NCBI GenBank assembly: GCA_017881265.1
Contig: JADGRA010000024.1
Span: 1 to 64,000 of the forward strand
DNA: 64,000 nucleotides
Direction: 5' to 3'
Origin: Myxococcaceae bacterium
Lineage (GTDB): Bacteria > Myxococcota > Myxococcia > Myxococcales > Myxococcaceae
Shown here: piece after piece, positions 21,383 to 31,432 of the stretch
How positions within the stretch are numbered: position 1 is the stretch's first letter
How the letters are laid out: every line of letters begins with the position of its first letter
The notes under the pieces: model-generated
Database searches by the model: none
What the model saw: only the letters and a program-made list of their open reading frames with translations
Told to the model about the DNA's origin: nothing
Program-made: the position numbers and the translations under genes

Positions 21383-22237
21383 ATGCGCCTTTCGCCTCGC
21401 GTTGCCTTTGCCGTCGCTGTCGGTGCCACTTTGCTGACGGGCCCGGCTCAGGCCCAGGAGCCCGCCAAGCTGGAATTGCCCCGCCCCAGCCCGTACGCCA
21501 CCTTCAAGCAGACGGTCGGCCTCACCGACGTCACCGTCGCGTACGCGAGCCCAGCCGTCCACGGCCGCAAAATCTGGGGCACCGTCGTGCCGTATGACGA
21601 GTTGTGGAGAGCCGGCGCCAACGAGTGCACCAAGCTCACGCTGAGTACCCAAGCGACCATTGAAGGCAAGTCGGTGCCGGCCGGGGCGTACTGCCTCTTC
21701 CTGCTGCCCACCAAGGCCGGATGGACCTTCATCCTCAACAAGGACACCAGCTTGTGGGGCACGGACAAGTACAAGGCCTCCGACGACGTGCTGCGTGTCC
21801 CGGCGACGGCCAGCACCATCCCCCTGCGCGAGAGGCTTGCCTTCAGCGTGCTCGACTTCAGCGACACGGGCGGCACCCTGGCCATGGAGTGGGACACCGT
21901 CCGCGTCGGCGTGAAATTCGAGCTCCCCACCCGGGCCAACGTGCTGGCGGAAATCCGTAAGCTGAAGACAGACGACTGGGCCCCGTACAACCGTGCCGCG
22001 CGGTACCTTTTGGAGGCCAAGGCGGAGCCGGCCTACGCCATGGAACTGGTCGACAAGTCCATCAAGTTAAAGGAGGACTGGTTCAACGACTGGACCAAAG
22101 CGCAGCTGCTGGCGGCGTCTGGCAACACCAAGCAAGCCCTGGCCATTGCACAGCGGGCGCAGGAGCTAGGCAAGCAGTCGAGCAACTTCTTCTACGCGGA
22201 CGAGGTGGCCAAGGCCATCTCCGACTGGAAGAAGTAG
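21383..22237 (+). CDS. DUF2911 protein, secreted
   Basis: 284 residues from ATG 21383 behind AAGAGGAC. Residues 1-24 form a signal peptide (VAFAVAVGATLLTGPAQAQ). The body is the DUF2911 beta-sandwich: TVAYASPAVHGRKIWGTVVP, WRAGANECTKLTLSTQATIE, GKSVPAGAYCLFLLP, WTFILNKDTSLWGTD, LRERLAFSVLDFSDTGGTLA and EWDTVRVGVKFEL. The C-terminal 70 residues are a TPR-like helical tail (AYAMELVDKSIKLKEDWFND; KQALAIAQRAQELG). The family is common in Bacteroidota and Myxococcota and has no assigned activity. It is likely periplasmic. It diverges from the formate dehydrogenase operon with a 130-base shared promoter region, and it converges with bshA 4 bases downstream. Confidence 0.87.
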   Translation: MRLSPRVAFAVAVGATLLTGPAQAQEPAKLELPRPSPYATFKQTVGLTDVTVAYASPAVHGRKIWGTVVPYDELWRAGANECTKLTLSTQATIEGKSVPAGAYCLFLLPTKAGWTFILNKDTSLWGTDKYKASDDVLRVPATASTIPLRERLAFSVLDFSDTGGTLAMEWDTVRVGVKFELPTRANVLAEIRKLKTDDWAPYNRAARYLLEAKAEPAYAMELVDKSIKLKEDWFNDWTKAQLLAASGNTKQALAIAQRAQELGKQSSNFFYADEVAKAISDWKK

Positions 22238-22241
22238 GCCC

Positions 22242-23414
22242 TCAGGCCGGAGCGGCCAGAAGCCGGCGGTACAGCGCTTCGATGCGCTCCACCACCGGTT
22301 CCGGCCGGAAGCGCGCCAGCGCATCGGCCCGCGCCGCCCGCCCCATGGCGGCGCGCCGGGCCTCCTCGGAGAGGAGCTCCACGACGGCGGCGGCAAGCGC
22401 CGGTGCGTCGCGCACCGGTACCAGCAGGCCCGTTTCCCCGTGTCGGACGACTTCCGGAAGTCCGCCCACGCGCGTGGCCACCACCGGGACGCCCGAGGCG
22501 AGGGCCTCGAGCGCAGCTAGCCCGAAGCTTTCCTGCTCGCTTGGCAGCACAAACACGTCCGCCTGGGCGAGCAGCGGCCCCATCTGCACCTGTTCGCCGA
22601 GGAAGGCCACCTGGCGGGTGAGGCCGAGGGAGGCGGTTAGCTTCTCGACGGCCGGCCGCTCCGGGCCATCCCCCACTAGGACCAGCGCCGCCGGCCGGCT
22701 GCGCAGCACCTGGGCGAACGCAAGCACGGCATCGCCCACCCGTTTCACCGCCCGGAAGTTGGAGGCGTGCAGCAGAAGGCCGGCCCTTCCTGGCCCTTCC
22801 CAGGGGAGGTTCGGAAACAGTCCGCGCAGCGCCGGCGTGTCCTCGCCCGGGTGAAACTCCACCGGGTCCACGAAGTTGGGAAGCACCTCGACGGCCGTCG
22901 CCTCGGGCAGCGACAGGTTCTCGAAGGCGGCGTGGCGCAGCCACACCGAGGGCGTCGTCACCGCGTCGCTCCGCAGGACGGCGTGGCGGGTGACGGCGGT
23001 GAGTGCCCGGTCGCCGACGATGCCGGTGACGTCGGTTCCATGAAGCGTCGTCACCAGCCGCGGGGGTCGCCCGCCCTGGCGTGCCACCATGTCCTGGGCA
23101 AGCAGCGCGCTGGCCGCGTGGGGGAGCGCGTAGTGGACGTGGAAAAGGTCGAGGCGCTCCCGCAGGGCGACGGCCGCCATTTCTCCGGCGAGCGCCAGGG
23201 CGTACACCCCGTTCTCGAGCGGCGGGCGGGTGACTGGCGCGATGCGGTGCAGCACGCACGCCCCCTTCGTGCTCGACAAACGCACCGGCAGCCCGGAGGA
23301 AAAGACGTGCACCGCGTGCCCCTGTCCGGCCAGCTTCAGGGCGAGTTGGGAGGCGGCGACGCCACTGCCGCCCACCGTCGGAAAGCAGGCGATGCCCACC
23401 GCCAGAGGCTTCAC
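22242..23414 (-). CDS. bshA: N-acetyl-alpha-D-glucosaminyl L-malate synthase (bacillithiol biosynthesis)
   Basis: 390 residues from GTG 23414, which overlaps the bshC stop (GTGA). It is a GT4 glycosyltransferase that joins UDP-GlcNAc to L-malate. BshA hallmarks: GIACFPTVGGSGVAASQLAL (N-terminal donor-fold loop), DLFHVHYALPHAASALLAQD, TTLHGTDVTGIVGD, SNFRAVKRVGD, and the C-terminal donor motif EQESFGLAALEALASGVPVV with VGGLPEVV. Length is normal for the family. The pairing with bshC supports a bacillithiol role rather than another GT4. BshB is not in this window as a small deacetylase; a large PIG-L protein lies divergent (25060-27531). Confidence 0.92.
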   Translation of the reverse strand: MKPLAVGIACFPTVGGSGVAASQLALKLAGQGHAVHVFSSGLPVRLSSTKGACVLHRIAPVTRPPLENGVYALALAGEMAAVALRERLDLFHVHYALPHAASALLAQDMVARQGGRPPRLVTTLHGTDVTGIVGDRALTAVTRHAVLRSDAVTTPSVWLRHAAFENLSLPEATAVEVLPNFVDPVEFHPGEDTPALRGLFPNLPWEGPGRAGLLLHASNFRAVKRVGDAVLAFAQVLRSRPAALVLVGDGPERPAVEKLTASLGLTRQVAFLGEQVQMGPLLAQADVFVLPSEQESFGLAALEALASGVPVVATRVGGLPEVVRHGETGLLVPVRDAPALAAAVVELLSEEARRAAMGRAARADALARFRPEPVVERIEALYRRLLAAPA

Positions 23415-25015
23415 AGCTGAAGGCTCCGGACCTCGGGTGAAAGCGGCCGCGCTGCCTCGACCAGCGCCTTCACCAGCGCGCGGGGGCCCACCGAGGCTGC
23501 CACCGACGGGAAGGCGTAGACGCGTTCCTGCGGCAGGCCGCCGGGGCGAAGGGCGGTGAAGAGGTGCTCGAGGCGCTCGGCCGCAACCCGGTCCTGGGCG
23601 TGCGCCGCACGCTCGAGCTTGCTCACCAGCTTGTCGATGCCGTGAGCGACGTGGGCCCGTGTCTTCCGGACGTTCCTCTCCAACCTCGGCTCGAGGCGGA
23701 CGGCATGGGGGAGCAGCGCCTCCAGCTCGCGTTCGACTGGCCCCAGCAGTCGTGCGCGGAGCCACTCAGCCGGTGGCAGCCAGGCCGGACGGACCTGTAC
23801 CTGCGCCGAGACCTCCTCGCGCGGACGGTCGGCGTCCTCCGGGCGCAGGCCGAGACCTGCGAGCAGTCCCCGCACCCGCTCGTCGACCAGCCGGAGCCGG
23901 GCCCGGGGCGCCACCATCGGCATCCTCAGCCCGAACAGCGAGTAGAGGGGCGGCAGCTGCGCGAAATACGCGCACTCGGCCGGTCCGCCAATGTACGCGG
24001 CCGTGGGCAAGAGCGTATCCTGGACGAGCGGGCGCAGCAGGGCAGAGGTGCTGAAGCAGAGCGGGTCTTGCTCGAGGCAGGCGAAGAGTTCGGCCCGGCT
24101 GACAGGGCCGGCCGGGGTGGCGAAGCCCGCGCCGGCCGCGGCCAGGCGGTAGCGGGGGCCGGCGGGACCGCGGGGATGGAAGAAGGCAAGCGCAGCGTCG
24201 GGCCGGGTGTGCACCTGTTCGGTGAAGCCCTGTTCGCCCAGGGCGTGGGCTCTCTCCAGGAGGGCCGCTGCGATGGGCTCGTGCTCAGCGATGGCGCGCC
24301 GCAGCACGGGGGCGGCCAGCCGGGCCATGGCCGGGGTGCGCGGGTCGAGGAGGACGAGTCCGTCGGCGGCGAAGAGCTCCGCAAGCACCCCGGCGAAGGC
24401 CACCCCCGGAGGGCTACCGGCCCGGTAGTGGCGCGCCAGCAGGGCGGACACCTCGGAGCCGTGGGGGAGGGCCTGGAGCACGTCGTCGAGGGCCGAGGTG
24501 AGGCTCGCCACCTCCTTGGGCAAGGTCCGCTGCGCCAGCGAGAGGCGAGCCTGCTCGGGGGTCTCGGCCGGGAGTTCGAAGGAAGCCCGGCGCCCGGAGG
24601 GCAGAAGCACCTCCGCCCGGGCGATTTCCGCCCAGTCGTGGTCCTCGGTTTGCAGCCAGAAGAGGGGGACACAGGGCCGCCCGTGCCGCTCCGACAGCCA
24701 GCGGGCCCGGGCCACCGCCGTGGCGGCCTTGTACAGGGTGTAGAGCGGTCCGAGGAAGAGGCCCATCTGCTGGCCGGTGACGACGACGGTGGTCCCGGTG
24801 CGCCCCAGCAGCTCCACGTTTCGGTCACGCGAGGGGGACGCCGGGAGCTCGGCTGCTTGCCGGCTTAGCTCCTCGAGGAGCCCGTCCGCAGGGCGCCGTT
24901 GCGCGGCGTGCCCGACGGCAGCATCCCAGGCCTCCTCGTCCAGGGGACGCACGGGCAGCAGCGCCCGGGCCGGCGGCTCCCCGGCAATGAAGGAGGCGAA
25001 AAAGTCAGAAGCCAT
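23411..25015 (-). CDS. bshC: Bacillithiol synthase, cysteine-adding enzyme
   Basis: 534 residues from ATG 25015 (an in-frame TTG at 25027 is possible). BshC adds cysteine to GlcN-malate. Motifs in order: TVVVTGQQMGLFLGPLYTLYK (about 76-96), PLFWLQTEDHDWAEI (about 117-131), HTRPDAALAFFHPRG, CFSTSALLRPLVQDTLLPTA and AAYIGGPAECAYFAQLPPLY (about 340-360), then a long helical C-terminus with coiled-coil character (LERNVRKTRAHVAHGIDKLV). The Rossmann-like core with the family 'GQQ' and 'GGP.E.AY' signatures is clear. It overlaps bshA by GTGA. The divergent gene starts only 45 bases away, so the two promoters must overlap. Confidence 0.92.
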   Translation of the reverse strand: MASDFFASFIAGEPPARALLPVRPLDEEAWDAAVGHAAQRRPADGLLEELSRQAAELPASPSRDRNVELLGRTGTTVVVTGQQMGLFLGPLYTLYKAATAVARARWLSERHGRPCVPLFWLQTEDHDWAEIARAEVLLPSGRRASFELPAETPEQARLSLAQRTLPKEVASLTSALDDVLQALPHGSEVSALLARHYRAGSPPGVAFAGVLAELFAADGLVLLDPRTPAMARLAAPVLRRAIAEHEPIAAALLERAHALGEQGFTEQVHTRPDAALAFFHPRGPAGPRYRLAAAGAGFATPAGPVSRAELFACLEQDPLCFSTSALLRPLVQDTLLPTAAYIGGPAECAYFAQLPPLYSLFGLRMPMVAPRARLRLVDERVRGLLAGLGLRPEDADRPREEVSAQVQVRPAWLPPAEWLRARLLGPVERELEALLPHAVRLEPRLERNVRKTRAHVAHGIDKLVSKLERAAHAQDRVAAERLEHLFTALRPGGLPQERVYAFPSVAASVGPRALVKALVEAARPLSPEVRSLQL

Positions 25016-25059
25016 GCGAAGGTCCAACGTAACAGTGCCCGCGGAGAACGTCCTACTGC

Positions 25060-27531
25060 ATGCATCGACTTCCTGGTGTCACCTTGGCCCTCACCTTGCT
25101 GCTGTCCACCGCGTCCGCCGAGCCTGGGTTACGCCCGGCGCAGCCGGACATTGCGCACCTGGAGCGCCTGCTGGACCGGCTGCTCGTCGTCGGAAATGTC
25201 CTCTATGTCGCCGCCCACCCCGACGACGAGAACACCCGGCTGCTCGCTTTCCTTTCCAACGGGATGCTGCTGCGTGCCGGTTACCTCTCCGTGACGCGCG
25301 GCGACGGCGGACAGAATCTCATCGGCCCTGAGCTAGCCCCCGGACTGGGCCTCATCCGCACCCAGGAGCTCCTCGCCGCGCGCGCCCTGGACGGCGCCGA
25401 GCAGCTCTTCACGCGGGCCAGAGACTTCGGCTACTCGAAGAGCCCGGAGGAAACGCTCGGCATCTGGGGCCATGAGGCGGTACTGGCGGACGTGGTGTTG
25501 GCCATCCGCCGTTTCCGCCCCGACGTCGTCATGACGCGCTTTCCCACCGGTGGAGTCGAAACCCACGGTCAGCACACGGCGTCGGCGCAGCTGGCGGTGG
25601 AGGCCGTCGCGCGGGCCGCGGACCCCGCCTACCTGCCCGACGCCGAGCACCGACGCCTGGGGCCTTGGAAGGTGACGCGGGTGGTGTGGAACCAGTTCAC
25701 CGGCTTCGGCGCCCCGGAGCAGGAGCTATCAGGCTCTGCGAGCCTGGACGCAGGGGGGTATGACCCATGGCTGGGCCTTTCCTATGGCGAGCTTGCTGCC
25801 GACAGCCGCAGCAACCACAAGAGCCAGGGCTTTGGAGCCGCGCGCCGGCGCGGCCCGATTCCCGAATACTTCAAGCTGCTGGCCGGCGAGCCGATGAAGA
25901 ATTCCCCGTTTGACGGGGTGGTATTCGACTGGTCGCGCGTCCCGGGCAGCGAGAAGCTGGTGGCCGAGCTCAAGCGCGCGCGCGCCGCCTTCCGGACGGC
26001 CACGCCCGAGGCGGCCCTTCCGGGCCTGCTGGCGGCGAGGGCGGAGCTCAGCCGACTTCCGGACAACCCGTGGAAGGCGCAGAAGCTGGCCGAGCTGGAG
26101 CAGGCGATTTTCGCCTGCAGTGGCCTGTTCGCCGAAGTGGTGGCGGACCGGCCCAGCACCTCCCCGGGGGCCACCGTGCCTGTCGTCGTAACGGCCCTGC
26201 TCCGCCGCCCGGCCAAGGTGACCCTGAACGAGGTGCGCTTGGCGGGACACGCCCTCAAGACCAACCGGGCACTCGAGGCGGGCCAGCCCTTCGAAGTCAA
26301 GGAGGCGCTGTCGGTGCCGAGCGACACGCGGCTGAGCAACCCGGTGTGGCTGGAGTTGCCGCCGACGGCTGGCCAGTACCCGGTTTCGGACCCAGGCCTG
26401 GTCGGCCTTCCCGAAGAGCCGGCACCGCTGCAGGCGGAGTTTCTGTTTGGGTTTGGCGAGCAGTCCGTGGCGGTGAGGCGGCCCGTCGTCTTCAAGTGGG
26501 TGGACCCGGTCCTCGGGGAACGCTACCGGCGCCTCGAAGTGCTCCCGGCGGTGACGGTGGACCCTGACGGGCCGCTGCTGGTTTTTCCTGATGCGCGTGA
26601 AAAGCAGCTGACGGTCACCGTGCGCAGCGTGGCCGGTGCGTCCGGGACGCTCGCGCTCGACCTGCCGCCGGGCTTTACCGTCACCCCGAAAAGCGTGCCC
26701 TTCGTCCTGGAGAAGGGCGCGGAGGCCACGCTGGCCTTCCGGGTGACGCCGCCAAAGGCGGCTGCCACCGGCGTGTTGCGTGCGGTGGCGACCGTGGCTG
26801 GCAGGACGTACGACCGTGGCCTCCGGCGCATCGAGTACGCGCACATCCCCATCCAGACGTGGCTCCCGCCGGCCGAGGTGCGGCTGACGCGCGTGGACGT
26901 GGCCCACGTCCGCCACCGCATCGGCTACGTCCCGGGCCCGGGCGACGAGGTGCCGCAAGCGCTGCGGCAGGTCGGCTACGAGGTGACTCCGCTGACGCTG
27001 ACCGAGCTCCGGGAGCAGCCGCTCGGCGGCTTCCAGGCCATCGTTTTCGGTGTCCGTGCCTTCAACGTCGAGCCTCGGCTGTCGACGCTCCACGACAAGC
27101 TCATGGGCTACGTCCAGGCGGGCGGGACGGTCGTCCTGCAGTACAACACCACCAGCTGGCCGTCCTCCGGCCCACCCCCGCTCGGGCCGTTTCCTTTCAC
27201 CATCGGTCATGGGCGTGTCACGGATGAAGGAGCAGCGGTGACGTCGGCTCCGCACCCGGTCCTCACCAACCCCAACCCCATTGGCCCGTCGGACTGGAAT
27301 GCCTGGGTGCAGGAGCGAGGCCTCTACTTCGCCGAGACGTGGGACGAGCGCTATGCAGTCCCGCTGTCGATGCACGACCCCGGAGAGCAGCCGCTGCGTG
27401 GTGCGCTGCTCATCGCCCAGCTGGGCAAGGGCTCCTTCATCTACACCGGCCTATCCTTCTTCCGGCAGCTGCCCGCCGGCGTCCCGGGCGCGTTCCGCCT
27501 CTTCGCCAATCTCGTCGACCATGGCGGCTGA
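25060..27531 (+). CDS. Large exported PIG-L/LmbE family deacetylase
   Basis: 823 residues with a signal peptide (about 1-20, ALTLLLSTASA). The PIG-L domain (about 40-260) has the zinc motif AHPDDE (52-57), the later HGQH motif and VVMTRFPTGG. PIG-L enzymes remove N-acetyl groups from GlcNAc conjugates, as BshB and MshB do. Residues about 300-640 form Ig-like beta domains (TVSPGATVPVV-type strands; KQLTVTVRSVAGASGTLALD). About 650-823 resembles a GATase1/ThuA-like fold (FQAIVFGVRAFNVEPRLSTL; YVQAGGTVVLQYNTT). This long form differs from cytoplasmic BshB (about 230 residues) and acts outside the cytoplasm. It is followed by a small membrane protein and a symporter (stop overlaps the next start). 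It diverges from bshC. Confidence 0.87.
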   Translation: MHRLPGVTLALTLLLSTASAEPGLRPAQPDIAHLERLLDRLLVVGNVLYVAAHPDDENTRLLAFLSNGMLLRAGYLSVTRGDGGQNLIGPELAPGLGLIRTQELLAARALDGAEQLFTRARDFGYSKSPEETLGIWGHEAVLADVVLAIRRFRPDVVMTRFPTGGVETHGQHTASAQLAVEAVARAADPAYLPDAEHRRLGPWKVTRVVWNQFTGFGAPEQELSGSASLDAGGYDPWLGLSYGELAADSRSNHKSQGFGAARRRGPIPEYFKLLAGEPMKNSPFDGVVFDWSRVPGSEKLVAELKRARAAFRTATPEAALPGLLAARAELSRLPDNPWKAQKLAELEQAIFACSGLFAEVVADRPSTSPGATVPVVVTALLRRPAKVTLNEVRLAGHALKTNRALEAGQPFEVKEALSVPSDTRLSNPVWLELPPTAGQYPVSDPGLVGLPEEPAPLQAEFLFGFGEQSVAVRRPVVFKWVDPVLGERYRRLEVLPAVTVDPDGPLLVFPDAREKQLTVTVRSVAGASGTLALDLPPGFTVTPKSVPFVLEKGAEATLAFRVTPPKAAATGVLRAVATVAGRTYDRGLRRIEYAHIPIQTWLPPAEVRLTRVDVAHVRHRIGYVPGPGDEVPQALRQVGYEVTPLTLTELREQPLGGFQAIVFGVRAFNVEPRLSTLHDKLMGYVQAGGTVVLQYNTTSWPSSGPPPLGPFPFTIGHGRVTDEGAAVTSAPHPVLTNPNPIGPSDWNAWVQERGLYFAETWDERYAVPLSMHDPGEQPLRGALLIAQLGKGSFIYTGLSFFRQLPAGVPGAFRLFANLVDHGG

Positions 27532-27670
27532 GAAGCCCGCCGACGCGGCAGTCCCCGAAACGGACATCCGTCCGCCGCTCGGCACCTGGCGGCGGCTGTA
27601 CGCGCTCGTCCTGGGGGTGCTGGCGGCGGAGATTGTCCTGCTGGCGCTCCTGGCGAGGGCCTTCGGGTGA
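27521..27670 (+). CDS. Small single-pass membrane protein between PIG-L and symporter genes
   Basis: 49 residues, ATG 27521 inside the 3' end of the deacetylase gene. The N-terminal half is soluble and acidic; residues about 26-46 (LYALVLGVLAAEIVLLALLA) form one transmembrane helix. Its TGA overlaps the GTG of the symporter gene (GTGA). Small one-helix proteins in this position before SSS-family symporters are often subunits of the transporter. The overlaps on both sides argue that it is translated and coupled. Confidence 0.72.
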   Translation: MAAEKPADAAVPETDIRPPLGTWRRLYALVLGVLAAEIVLLALLARAFG

Positions 27671-29373
27671 GCGGGCTCGACTGGGGTGTGCTAGGGGCGA
27701 CGCTGGCGGCGATTGTCCTCTACGGCTCTTGGAAGAGCCGCGGCGTGCACACCACCGAGTCCTTTCTGCGTGCCGGAAAGGACATCCGTTGGTGGACCAT
27801 CGGACTGTCGGTCATCGCCACGCAGGCCAGCGCCATCACCTTCCTGTCCGTCCCCGGCCAGGCCTACCAGGACGGGCTCGGCTTCGTTCAGTTCTACTTC
27901 GGCTTGCCGATAGCGATGGTCATCCTCTCGGCCATCATCGTTCCCATCTACCACCGGCTCCGCCTCTACACGGCGTACGAGTACCTCGAGCAGCGCTTCG
28001 ACCGTAGAACGCGCCAATTCACGGCCCTGCTCTTTCTGGTGTCTCGGGGGCTGGCCTCGGGGCTCGCCATCTATGCGCCGGCGCTCGTCCTTTCCGCCGT
28101 TCTCGGCTGGCCGGCGCTGTGGACCAACTTCGTCCTCGGCGCGACCACCATACTCTACACGGTGCTGGGCGGAAGCCGCGCGGTGAGTCGCACCCAGTCC
28201 GCGCAGATGGCGCTCATCTCGGTGGGCCTGGTGGCTGCGCTGGTCATCGCCCTGGTGCGCCTCCCCCCTGGGGTGTCCGTGGGGCAGGGAGTCGCCCTGG
28301 CGGGGGCGCTCGGGAAACTCGAAGGCGTCGACTTTTCACTCCGCTTCGACACCCGCTACACGCTCTGGTCCGGGCTTCTCGGCGGCCTCTTCGTCCAGTT
28401 GGCGTACTTCGGAACGGACCAGTCGCAGGTGCAACGCTACCTCGCCGGTGGGCCGCTGGCCGAGAGCCGGCTCGGACTGTTGATGAACGGGCTCCTCAAG
28501 GTCCCGATGCAGCTCTTCATTCTCTTCATCGGGGTGATGGTCTTCGTCTATTACCAGCTCAGTCCGGCGCCGCTCTTCTTCAACCGGACCGAGTGGGAGA
28601 GGGCGCGCTCGCGGGATGGCGTGGCGGTGGCTCAGCTCGAGCAAGCGCATGCCGAGGCGTTTGCTGAGCAGCGCGCCGCCATCGACCGCTTCCTGGCACC
28701 GGGGACGGCTCCGGCGGTGGTGGCCGCGGCACGCTCGGAGTTACGGGCGGACCAGGCGCGCCTGGCCGGCCTGCGAAAACAGGCGGGGACGCTGGTCGCC
28801 AGGACGTTGCCTGGCGCGGACCCGAAGGACTCGGACTTCATCTTCCTGCGCTTTGTCCTCGACCACTTCCCACGCGGTCTCATCGGGTTGCTCGTGGCCG
28901 TCATTCTTTCGGCCGCCATGTCCGCCAACTCGGCCGCCCTGTCCTCCCTCGGCGCGACGACGGTGGTGGACTTCTTCCGTCCACGCTTCCCCGGAGCGAG
29001 CGACCGCCAAACCCTGCTCGTGGCGCGGCTGGCGACCGCGGGCTGGGGCCTGCTGGCCGTGGGCTTCGCCGCCTTCGCTTCGCTCCTCGACAACCTCATC
29101 CAGGCCGTCAACATCCTCGGCTCTCTCTTCTACGGGCCCATGCTGGGCGTCTTCCTGGTGGGCTTCTTCCTGCGGCGGGTGCGCGGTCCTGCGGCCTTCT
29201 GGGCCACTGTCCTGGGGGAGGCGCTGGTGCTCGCGGCGGCGGCGTTCGGGAAGGTGGGTTTCCTCTGGTACTCCGTCCTCGGGTGCCTGGTGGTGGTGGG
29301 CCTGGCTCCGCTGCTGCAAGCGGTCATGCCCGCCGGGCCAGGACGCCCGAGTCCCACGCCATCCGGCGCTTAG
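27667..29373 (+). CDS. Sodium:solute symporter (SSS family)
   Basis: 568 residues, GTG start overlapping the small gene. An LeuT-fold transporter with 13-14 transmembrane helices. Family marks: SFLRAGKDIRWWTIGLSVIATQASAITFLSVPG (helix 1 region, read in parts), GLGFVQFYFGLPIAM, YTAYEYLEQRF, ILYTVLGGSRAVSRTQSAQM and AVILSAAMSANSAALSSLGA with the conserved Ser pair of the sodium site. An insertion of about 90 residues (about 300-390, helical and Ala/Arg/Glu-rich, TEWERARSRDGVAVAQLEQA) sits between helices; such inserts occur in the symporters that accompany PIG-L genes. The substrate is unknown; the operon suggests a sugar or glycoconjugate released by the deacetylase. Confidence 0.88.
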   Translation: MSGLDWGVLGATLAAIVLYGSWKSRGVHTTESFLRAGKDIRWWTIGLSVIATQASAITFLSVPGQAYQDGLGFVQFYFGLPIAMVILSAIIVPIYHRLRLYTAYEYLEQRFDRRTRQFTALLFLVSRGLASGLAIYAPALVLSAVLGWPALWTNFVLGATTILYTVLGGSRAVSRTQSAQMALISVGLVAALVIALVRLPPGVSVGQGVALAGALGKLEGVDFSLRFDTRYTLWSGLLGGLFVQLAYFGTDQSQVQRYLAGGPLAESRLGLLMNGLLKVPMQLFILFIGVMVFVYYQLSPAPLFFNRTEWERARSRDGVAVAQLEQAHAEAFAEQRAAIDRFLAPGTAPAVVAAARSELRADQARLAGLRKQAGTLVARTLPGADPKDSDFIFLRFVLDHFPRGLIGLLVAVILSAAMSANSAALSSLGATTVVDFFRPRFPGASDRQTLLVARLATAGWGLLAVGFAAFASLLDNLIQAVNILGSLFYGPMLGVFLVGFFLRRVRGPAAFWATVLGEALVLAAAAFGKVGFLWYSVLGCLVVVGLAPLLQAVMPAGPGRPSPTPSGA

Positions 29374-29446: not shown

Positions 29447-31432
29447 TCACTCCAGCTCGAGTTGCTGGAAGGTCCCGTTGCCGTCGATGACGGTGCCCCA
29501 CACCTTGTGGGACGCTTGGTGCTCTGAGAGGCCAAAGCTGAGGGGAACCCCCAGGCCGAGGTCGAGCCCGTGGATGCTTTCCAGCGCGTCCACCAGGCCA
29601 TCCACCGTCACGTTGCGGCCGGCGAGCTTGAGGCCCTCCAGCAGCAGGTTGCCGGTGACGTAGCCCTCCAGCGAGATGAAGTTAGGCCTCTCCTCGGGGG
29701 CGAAGCTGGCCAGCGCTTCACGGTACCGCATGCCGACGGTGGACTGACCGGTGGGGAGCGGCACCACTTGGGTGATGATGACGCCTTGGGCGTACTGGGG
29801 CCCGAGCTGCAGCAGTTCCTCGGCCAGTGCCTGGCTGCCGACGAAGGAGACGTTGGTGAAAATCATCTCCGGGCGCTGCTCGCGGACCTTCTCGATGAAG
29901 CGGGCGGCCGGACGGTAGGTGGCGACCATCACCACCGCGGCCACGTTCGCCTTCTTGTCGACGATGCGGGCGACGGCGTCGGAGACATCCGCGGTGTTGC
30001 GCGTGTAGGTCGCCTTGAGAATGGGCGTGGAGGTCCGCTTTACCTGGCGCAGACCCTTGGTGACGCCCTGGAAGCCGGCATCCCCGTAGCTGTCATCCTG
30101 GGCGAAGACGGCAATCTGCTCGGGCTTGATGTGCCGGACCTCGACCAGGTAGCGGACGATGGCTGCCGTCTCCTCGGTGTAGCTGGCCCGGTAGTTGAAG
30201 ACGTACCGGTCGGGCGGCTCCTTGCGCAGGAGCGAGGCGCCGGTGAAGGGGCCGAAGAAGAGCATCTTGCGCTCGAGTGCGTAGGGGACGGCCACGGCCG
30301 CGGTGGGTGTCCCGACGTTGCCGACGAAGCTGAAGACGCCGCGCTGATCGACCAGCTCTCGCATGACGTCCTTGGTGCGCGAGGGCTCATACCCGTCGTC
30401 CAGGGCGAGCAGCTTCACCTTGCGGCCGTTGACGCCACCGTTGGCGTTGGCCCGGGCGAAGGCCACATCCAGGCCGAGTCGCATCTGCCGACCGAGCTCC
30501 TTAGAGACGCCCGTCAGCGGCGCCGCCATGCCGAGGGAAATCTCGGTGTCGCTGATGCCCGCCACGGCCGACGCCGTTGCCGCCGGCGCAACGGCAGGTT
30601 TGGCGGCGACGGGAACCTCGGCCGCCGCTTGGTTGCGCAGGTACGCGACCCCGACGGCCAGGCCGATGCCCAGGACGAAGACGGCGGCGATGGCTAGCAG
30701 GGCTCCCGGTGGAAGCAGCAGGCTCTTACGCTCCCGGCGGACGCTGGAGAAGGGGGCGGTCCCCGCGGCCGGCTGGCCACGGGCCGGGGGGGTGTGCGGG
30801 CTACTGAAGGGCGAGGTGGTGGGCCCGGAGGTGTGCAGCGGGCGTGGGCCGGAACTGGTTGCGCTAGCGGCCGGGGGCAGCGGCGGCGGGGGTGCCACCG
30901 CGGCAGCAACGGCGACGCCCGGGCCGGTGGTCGCCCGCATGCCGAGGTCTTTGGGGGGACTGCGGTGCGCTCCACTCTGTGGAGAGGGGACGCTGGCCGG
31001 CGCGGCACTCGCTGCCACCGCCCGGTGCGTCGTCAGCCGGGGCAGGGGGGCCGGGGGCGGCGTCGGGCGCGCGCCGCCGTCCACGGTGTAGAGCCGGGGT
31101 GGGGGTGGCCTCTCGGGAGCGGCGGCCGAGGCGGAGAGCGCCACCCAGGGCTCGTTGATGGTGTGGCGCGCGCTCCGCGAGCCGAGCTCCACCTGGTACT
31201 TGCCGGCCCGGACCCGCAGCGCCTGGCGCACGGCGTCCGGTCCCTCGCGCCCGTCGAAGAGCGCGTCCACCACCGCGCCGGCCTCGATGAAGAAGGCGCC
31301 GGAGGCCTCCCCGCCCGACGCTCGAGGAATGCTGACGGAGACGGCCGCGGTCTGGCCGCTGCGTGCGTAGTAGTCGAGGACCTCGACGAGAGAGACTTCG
31401 GTAAACTCACCAATGCGAGGTGGAGTCTTCAT
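29447..31432 (-). CDS. DUF4388 domain fused to a LivK-type periplasmic binding protein
   Basis: 661 residues. Order: DUF4388 domain (about 1-100; GEFTEVSLVEVLDYYARSGQ, then GAFFIEAGAVVDALFDGREG), a Pro/Ala/Ser-rich linker (about 105-235), one transmembrane helix (about 241-265), and a type-1 periplasmic binding domain (about 293-655; EISLGMAAPLTGVSKELGRQ, VDQRGVFSFVGNVGTPTA, QIAVFAQDDSYGDAGFQGV). The cytoplasmic DUF4388 part and the external branched-chain-amino-acid-type binding part are joined by a single membrane pass, so the protein looks like a receptor rather than an ABC-transporter component. No permease or ATPase gene is near. DUF4388 is frequent in myxobacterial signalling proteins. 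ATG start at 31432. Confidence 0.86.
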   Translation of the reverse strand: MKTPPRIGEFTEVSLVEVLDYYARSGQTAAVSVSIPRASGGEASGAFFIEAGAVVDALFDGREGPDAVRQALRVRAGKYQVELGSRSARHTINEPWVALSASAAAPERPPPPRLYTVDGGARPTPPPAPLPRLTTHRAVAASAAPASVPSPQSGAHRSPPKDLGMRATTGPGVAVAAAVAPPPPLPPAASATSSGPRPLHTSGPTTSPFSSPHTPPARGQPAAGTAPFSSVRRERKSLLLPPGALLAIAAVFVLGIGLAVGVAYLRNQAAAEVPVAAKPAVAPAATASAVAGISDTEISLGMAAPLTGVSKELGRQMRLGLDVAFARANANGGVNGRKVKLLALDDGYEPSRTKDVMRELVDQRGVFSFVGNVGTPTAAVAVPYALERKMLFFGPFTGASLLRKEPPDRYVFNYRASYTEETAAIVRYLVEVRHIKPEQIAVFAQDDSYGDAGFQGVTKGLRQVKRTSTPILKATYTRNTADVSDAVARIVDKKANVAAVVMVATYRPAARFIEKVREQRPEMIFTNVSFVGSQALAEELLQLGPQYAQGVIITQVVPLPTGQSTVGMRYREALASFAPEERPNFISLEGYVTGNLLLEGLKLAGRNVTVDGLVDALESIHGLDLGLGVPLSFGLSEHQASHKVWGTVIDGNGTFQQLELE

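Follow-up and report, generated by a model that had tools for sequence, protein, structure and literature searches.

In the glutathione cycling of Escherichia coli, the thiol is cut by a periplasmic gamma-glutamyltransferase. This bacterium both secretes and imports glutathione (PMC11719327). N-acylglucosamine cores are what LmbE enzymes work on, and one of these enzymes, Mca, frees GlcN-Ins for reuse (PMC4101496, PMC4360819); Mca and Bca cleave thiol S-conjugates at the same type of bond, leaving a glucosaminyl product that can be reused (PMC4101496). The bacillithiol pathway was already known from gene content in Myxococcota and Acidobacteriota. Our literature search, which left most subscription journals and preprints outside its scope, found no report joining bacillithiol, PIG-L and a symporter, and none on an exported PIG-L protein, a symporter or the small protein described below in the bacillithiol pathway.

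We analyzed the first 64,000 nucleotides of contig JADGRA010000024.1 from a Myxococcaceae bacterium, hereafter the window. The first-pass annotation had described a bshC-bshA pair on the minus strand facing plus-strand genes for an exported PIG-L protein, a 49-residue membrane protein and an SSS-family symporter, and every one of these genes was confirmed in its place. bshA (22242 to 23414, minus strand) encodes a GlcNAc-malate synthase of 390 amino acids, reaches 383.7 bits against the TIGR03999 equivalog model (cut-off, 273.7), and likely starts at the GTG at 23414, giving a 4-nt overlap with the stop of bshC. The gene for the cysteine-adding enzyme, bshC (23411 to 25027, minus strand; TIGR03998 equivalog, 378.6 bits; cut-off, 265.8), spans 538 codons if read from the TTG at 25027 that begins its longest frame, the likelier start being the ATG at 25015 (534 amino acids). 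On the plus strand, the long PIG-L/LmbE protein (25060 to 27531, 823 amino acids, ATG start at 25060) is followed with an 11-nt overlap by the gene for the single-transmembrane protein (27521 to 27670, 49 amino acids), which in turn overlaps by 4 nt the sodium:solute symporter gene (27667 to 29373, 568 amino acids, GTG start; PF00474, 1.4e-34; TIGR00813, 228.9 bits; cut-off, 184). The facing starts, thought to lie about 45 bases apart, are separated by a 44-bp intergenic region (25016 to 25059) when counted from the bshC ATG and by 32 bases when counted from the TTG. A simple scan of this divergent region revealed no sigma-70-type site, and neither a terminator nor an Rfam family was found there. 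A sixth member of the gene set, absent from the earlier description, lies directly downstream of bshA in convergent orientation and encodes a 284-amino-acid DUF2911 protein (21383 to 22237, plus strand; PF11138, 2.9e-47). Beyond the symporter, on the minus strand (29447 to 31432), the window encodes a 661-amino-acid protein with a Peripla_BP_6 substrate-binding domain after a weak DUF4388-like N-terminal region.

The exported PIG-L protein clearly passes PF02585 (54.9 bits; gathering score, 28.2), as do all 60 homologues collected, and matches PF10633 in its middle part. It consists of a signal peptide, an LmbE catalytic domain (residues ~42 to 290), an Ig/NEW3-like middle part and a C-terminal ThuA-like GATase1 fold (~617 to 823). 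That the enzyme acts outside the cytoplasm, as had been proposed, is supported by a predicted N-terminal hydrophobic signal, which was judged by hydropathy and inspection rather than by a dedicated predictor and was clear in 58 of the 60 homologues and borderline in the other 2. H53, D55, D56, R100, H169 and H172 are invariant in the 60 homologues and represent the HxDD motif, the distal metal histidine and the substrate arginine and histidine, with counterparts by alignment in MshB and also in BshB. The charged residues R80, R108, K127 and R160 are invariant as well, and R119 is present in 58 of 60. In an AlphaFold2 model (pLDDT, 90.7), residues 42 to 290 had their closest fold in MshB (4ewl; Z, 21.4; rmsd, 3.4; 233 residues aligned), followed by chitobiose deacetylases (Z, ~19) and BshB (6ull; Z, 18.2), while residues 617 to 823 matched ThuA-like GATase1 folds (Z, 14.7). 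The best NCBIfam match was a weak one to Mca (TIGR03446, 36.1 bits; cut-off, 277.15); BshB2 (TIGR04000) scored 24.8 bits, below its cut-off of 195.25, and no match to BshB1 (TIGR04001) was listed in the curated-model search. The family as a whole lies far under the Mca, MshB and BshB2 cut-offs. A shorter, divergent PIG-L branch (~550 to 840 amino acids) with an LmbE and a C-terminal domain occurs in Bacteroidota; one example (locus L191, G434:C122) had neither an SSS nor a bsh neighbor within the stretch read.

Among the window genome and 25 relatives, bshC was detected in 10 of 26, in each case with a long PIG-L gene close by (one copy, in G012, is cut by a contig end). A sample of 156 Myxococcota genomes at least 90% complete gave the same picture: 61 carried bshC and the long PIG-L gene, none carried bshC alone, 1 carried PIG-L alone and 94 carried neither. 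In the single PIG-L-only genome (G001), the contig starts at bshA, which adjoins the PIG-L gene. In each of the 61 genomes with both, the two genes share a contig and are at most 2.1 kb apart, in divergent or co-directional orientation, and no bshC-bearing myxococcote searched lacked the exported PIG-L gene. Since the genomes are not independent, the Fisher value of 4e-43 cannot be read as a probability, and the weight of the co-occurrence rests instead on two patterns: within one genus (g29), some species carry both genes and others neither, and in five families (f1, f6, f7, f14 and f16) the pair has stayed together although strand and order changed. In 217 Acidobacteriota genomes, both genes were present in 117, bshC only in 35, PIG-L only in 3 and neither in 62, the PIG-L counts being lower bounds because the first-look step scored few candidates per genome. 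Of the three genomes with PIG-L only, two (G661 and G518) have bshA immediately ahead of the PIG-L gene.

Gene order in relatives points the same way. Three Acidobacteriota (G677, G605 and G629) have the one-strand order DUF2911-bshC-bshB1-bshA-PIG-L-SSS, the distant myxococcote G039 has DUF2911-bshC-bshB1-bshA-PIG-L up to a contig end at PIG-L, and in G013 the genes run bshC-bshA-PIG-L-small-SSS with overlaps at all junctions. Because relatives keep such co-directional single operons, the divergent layout of the window is a rearranged form. That the two gene groups might be unrelated neighbors brought together by chance, the other reading offered in the first-pass annotation, draws on nothing besides this divergent arrangement; it is refuted by the far from random co-occurrence in Myxococcota and Acidobacteriota, by the close spacing of 61 of 61 pairs and by the overlapping single operons, and we give it next to no credence. 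Nor does the window genome, which is 95.7% complete, hold a second bshC, as a separate complete bsh operon with its own deacetylase would entail; no protein in it exceeds the BshB1 cut-off. We are thus highly confident that the PIG-L/SSS set is functionally linked to bacillithiol.

An alternative is that the enzyme and the symporter handle a different GlcNAc compound, from cell wall or glycan, and are tied to the bsh genes through shared regulation or ancestry only. This would fit the chitobiose deacetylases among the solved relatives of the fold and the sugar carriers among those of the symporter, which comprise multivitamin, iodide, monocarboxylate and sugar symporters, and it would also fit the Bacteroidota loci read, in which the pair has no bsh genes within 10 kb. 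Against it, PIG-L was gained or lost together with bshC inside a single genus, and the two were kept together through rearrangements in several families and in a second phylum, which makes this explanation rather improbable. The broader distribution was assessed in 80 loci from a contig scan, which came from Myxococcota, Bacteroidota, Ignavibacteria, Acidobacteriota and an Eisenbacteria bin. An SSS gene lay near PIG-L in 55 of these and a DUF2911 gene in 34, with bsh genes within 10 kb of PIG-L at the myxococcal loci only. At the genome level, bshC was present in 48 of 50 genomes picked for carrying the long PIG-L gene. In Bacteroidota, bshC was found in 291 of 296 genomes sampled, so that this sample cannot test whether PIG-L depends on bshC. 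The long PIG-L gene was detected in 27 of 75 Bacteroidota genomes with bshC, which makes the proposed outer arm optional in this phylum, and in 1 of 5 without it, that one being divergent.

Many of the Myxococcota, Bacteroidota and Acidobacteriota that carry the set are predatory or polymer degrading, and scavenging modules are usually built from an exported enzyme and an importer. Both observations would suit a role in salvaging bacillithiol from lysed prey or neighbors, as a nutrient or as a ready-made thiol precursor. We nevertheless regard such a role as quite improbable, the PIG-L/SSS genes being tied to the carrier's own bshA and bshC, even in one operon; pure scavengers, which would be expected to lack bsh genes, are rare (1 of 62 Myxococcota and 3 of 120 Acidobacteriota, most with bshA adjacent). 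One acidobacterial locus (L190, G561:C93) holds the full PIG-L-small-SSS-DUF2911 set, with no bshC detected and no bshA in the stretch read. This genome is the only such one in the Acidobacteriota sample and may represent a scavenger or simply an incomplete genome.

The 49-amino-acid protein of the window had no Pfam match. We built a profile from 13 myxococcal copies and searched loci of other phyla with it; of their 38,513 stop-to-stop frames, 52 matched (E, 5e-14 to 0.05). Every match is upstream of an SSS gene and on its strand, 50 of the 52 within 120 nt; the remaining two lie at 177 nt and at 682 nt, the latter where unread bases break the symporter gene. PIG-L is located upstream of 48 of the 52, and in four Acidobacteriota loci where it follows the SSS gene, the small gene still precedes SSS. 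The small protein thus accompanies the symporter as a conserved partner in several phyla, and since the profile matches sit upstream of SSS even where the order of PIG-L differs, it is probably a symporter subunit.

The DUF2911 protein has a predicted signal peptide (MRLSPRVAFAVAVGATLLTGPAQA), a beta part at its N terminus and TPR-like helices at its C terminus; in its structure model (pLDDT, 91.8), the C-terminal part was no more than TPR-like, which pointed to no function. In the literature searched, DUF2911 is mentioned by one paper. The gene is part of the set in most relatives, and many related loci from several phyla have it beside bsh genes, the PIG-L/SSS pair or both; such loci include L055, L056, L073, L075, L165 to L167, L173 to L175 and L177 to L180. 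Within several kb of PIG-L/SSS in Mucilaginibacter and a relative, seven matches (L071, L081, L087, L090, L093, L101 and L105), plus one weak match elsewhere, were found to a protein that, from its sequence, we take to be DinB-superfamily-like. The DinB superfamily includes bacillithiol S-transferases. This neighbor likely reflects local synteny and was set aside as a member of the set.

The deacetylase of the pathway proved less constant than the exported PIG-L protein, a second point that goes beyond the first-pass annotation. BshB1 was surveyed in 63 myxococcotes with the gene set (62 from the Myxococcota searches plus G003) and scored above the cut-off in 46. The other 17 keep the exported PIG-L and bshC genes, except that no bshC was detected in G001. 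When the BshA, BshC and PIG-L sequences of 30 loci were concatenated for a tree, BshB1 came out as lost about six times. Myxococcus xanthus strain AM003 (locus L075) carries the complete set together with bshB1. The gene is cleanly absent from between bshC and bshA in G063 (on one contig), G064, G066 and G097, and in G001, G013, G045, G136 and G038 (92 to 98% complete) no PF02585 protein besides the exported enzyme was found. The window genome itself has no recognizable BshB: besides the exported enzyme, its one other PF02585 protein is a 233-amino-acid PIG-L protein on contig C59, and both fall below the BshB cut-offs. The C59 protein (L002:1405-2106, plus strand) is encoded between sugar-1-phosphate nucleotidyltransferase-like and aminotransferase-like genes. 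With 56.6 bits against the BshB1 cut-off of 182.5 and a polysaccharide-type cluster around it, it was rejected as the BshB1 of this genome; it looks like a surface-polysaccharide deacetylase, and it may serve as a substitute deacetylase.

As BshB1 was repeatedly lost and the exported PIG-L protein kept, the latter may also supply the deacetylase step. Taken furthest, lineages without BshB1 would rely mainly on the exported enzyme to deacetylate GlcNAc-malate, with this compound passing out and GlcN-malate returning through the symporter. The 17 genomes, the roughly six losses on the tree, the clean gaps and the five genomes lacking another PF02585 protein all favor this periplasmic step. Yet BshB1 and the exported enzyme coexist in most myxococcotes and in the acidobacterial operons, exporting an intermediate would be costly and has no known exporter, and the step could fall to a cytoplasmic deacetylase from a different family. 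In addition, G063, G064 and G097 have other short PIG-L proteins, and many of the BshB1-less genomes represent one lineage. We judge it unlikely that the exported enzyme is the main deacetylase of these lineages, and slightly less likely still that bacillithiol synthesis in BshB1-less bacteria runs through the periplasm by export of GlcNAc-malate, deacetylation by PIG-L and reimport by the symporter. In BshB1-less species, the step may be carried out either by the exported PIG-L protein or by an unrelated cytoplasmic enzyme.

The reading we prefer, to which we give about even chances, is that the exported PIG-L protein is an extracytoplasmic amidase of bacillithiol or its conjugates and that the symporter reimports GlcN-malate. 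On the outer side of the inner membrane, the zinc-dependent LmbE/PIG-L enzyme would attack bacillithiol, its disulfides or its S-conjugates at the N-acyl-glucosamine bond. The products would be GlcN-malate and either cysteine or a cysteine S-conjugate. GlcN-malate would then be carried back to the cytoplasm by the SSS symporter and its single-helix partner, and there BshC could add cysteine again; where BshB1 has been lost, the exported enzyme may deacetylate GlcNAc-malate too. The recycling or import of glucosaminyl conjugates suggested in the first-pass annotation survives in this form: it fits all findings and is the most economical reading. The sequences themselves show a conserved gene set with its co-occurrence and linkage, the export signal, intact catalytic residues, the LmbE fold, the family of the symporter and its conserved small partner; which substrate is cut, which way transport runs and that GlcN-malate is reused are what we infer. 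Several points count against it. No bacillithiol exporter was identified, and the literature searched held no description of bacillithiol export in Myxococcota, Acidobacteriota or Bacteroidota. The C-terminal GATase-like domain plays no part in the model, most of the sampled Bacteroidota genomes with bshC have no detectable long PIG-L gene, and the scores of the family fall far short of the cut-offs for Mca, MshB and BshB2.

Should the amidase and reimport reading be true, an outer bacillithiol cycle resembling that of glutathione would operate in many diderm bacteria; should the periplasmic step of synthesis be real, one step in making a central cytoplasmic thiol would take place beyond the cell membrane. 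The PIG-L/SSS/microprotein set, which goes with bsh genes in Myxococcota and Acidobacteriota and also occurs in Bacteroidota that carry bshC, offers candidates for genes of bacillithiol turnover and for the deacetylase that BshB1-less species are missing. With the cytoplasmic amidases Mca and Bca, the exported enzyme shares the LmbE fold, the catalytic residues and presumably the cleavage of an N-acyl-glucosamine amide that leaves a reusable glucosaminyl product (PMC4101496). It differs from them in being exported, about three times longer, equipped with Ig-like and ThuA-like domains and paired with a symporter, and it scores 36 bits against the 277 required for Mca. With BshB1 and BshB2 it has in common the LmbE domain, the neighborhood in relatives and R100, the equivalent of BshB Arg53 and MshB Arg68; in contrast to them, it has no arginine at the position of BshB Arg109 (T168 in the window, G in most homologues), is exported, stays under the TIGR04001 and TIGR04000 cut-offs and coexists with a true BshB1 in many genomes. 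The pairing of an SSS/SLC5 symporter with a small single-span protein recalls human SGLT2-MAP17 (PMC10803289), without homology of the small proteins being claimed, the bacterial partner being about 35 to 60 amino acids long and encoded directly upstream of its symporter. The proposed cycle would follow the same logic as the periplasmic glutathione cycling of E. coli, with the thiol going out, being cut outside and its parts coming back, although the enzyme and transporter families are unrelated and the thiol is glutathione there and bacillithiol here.
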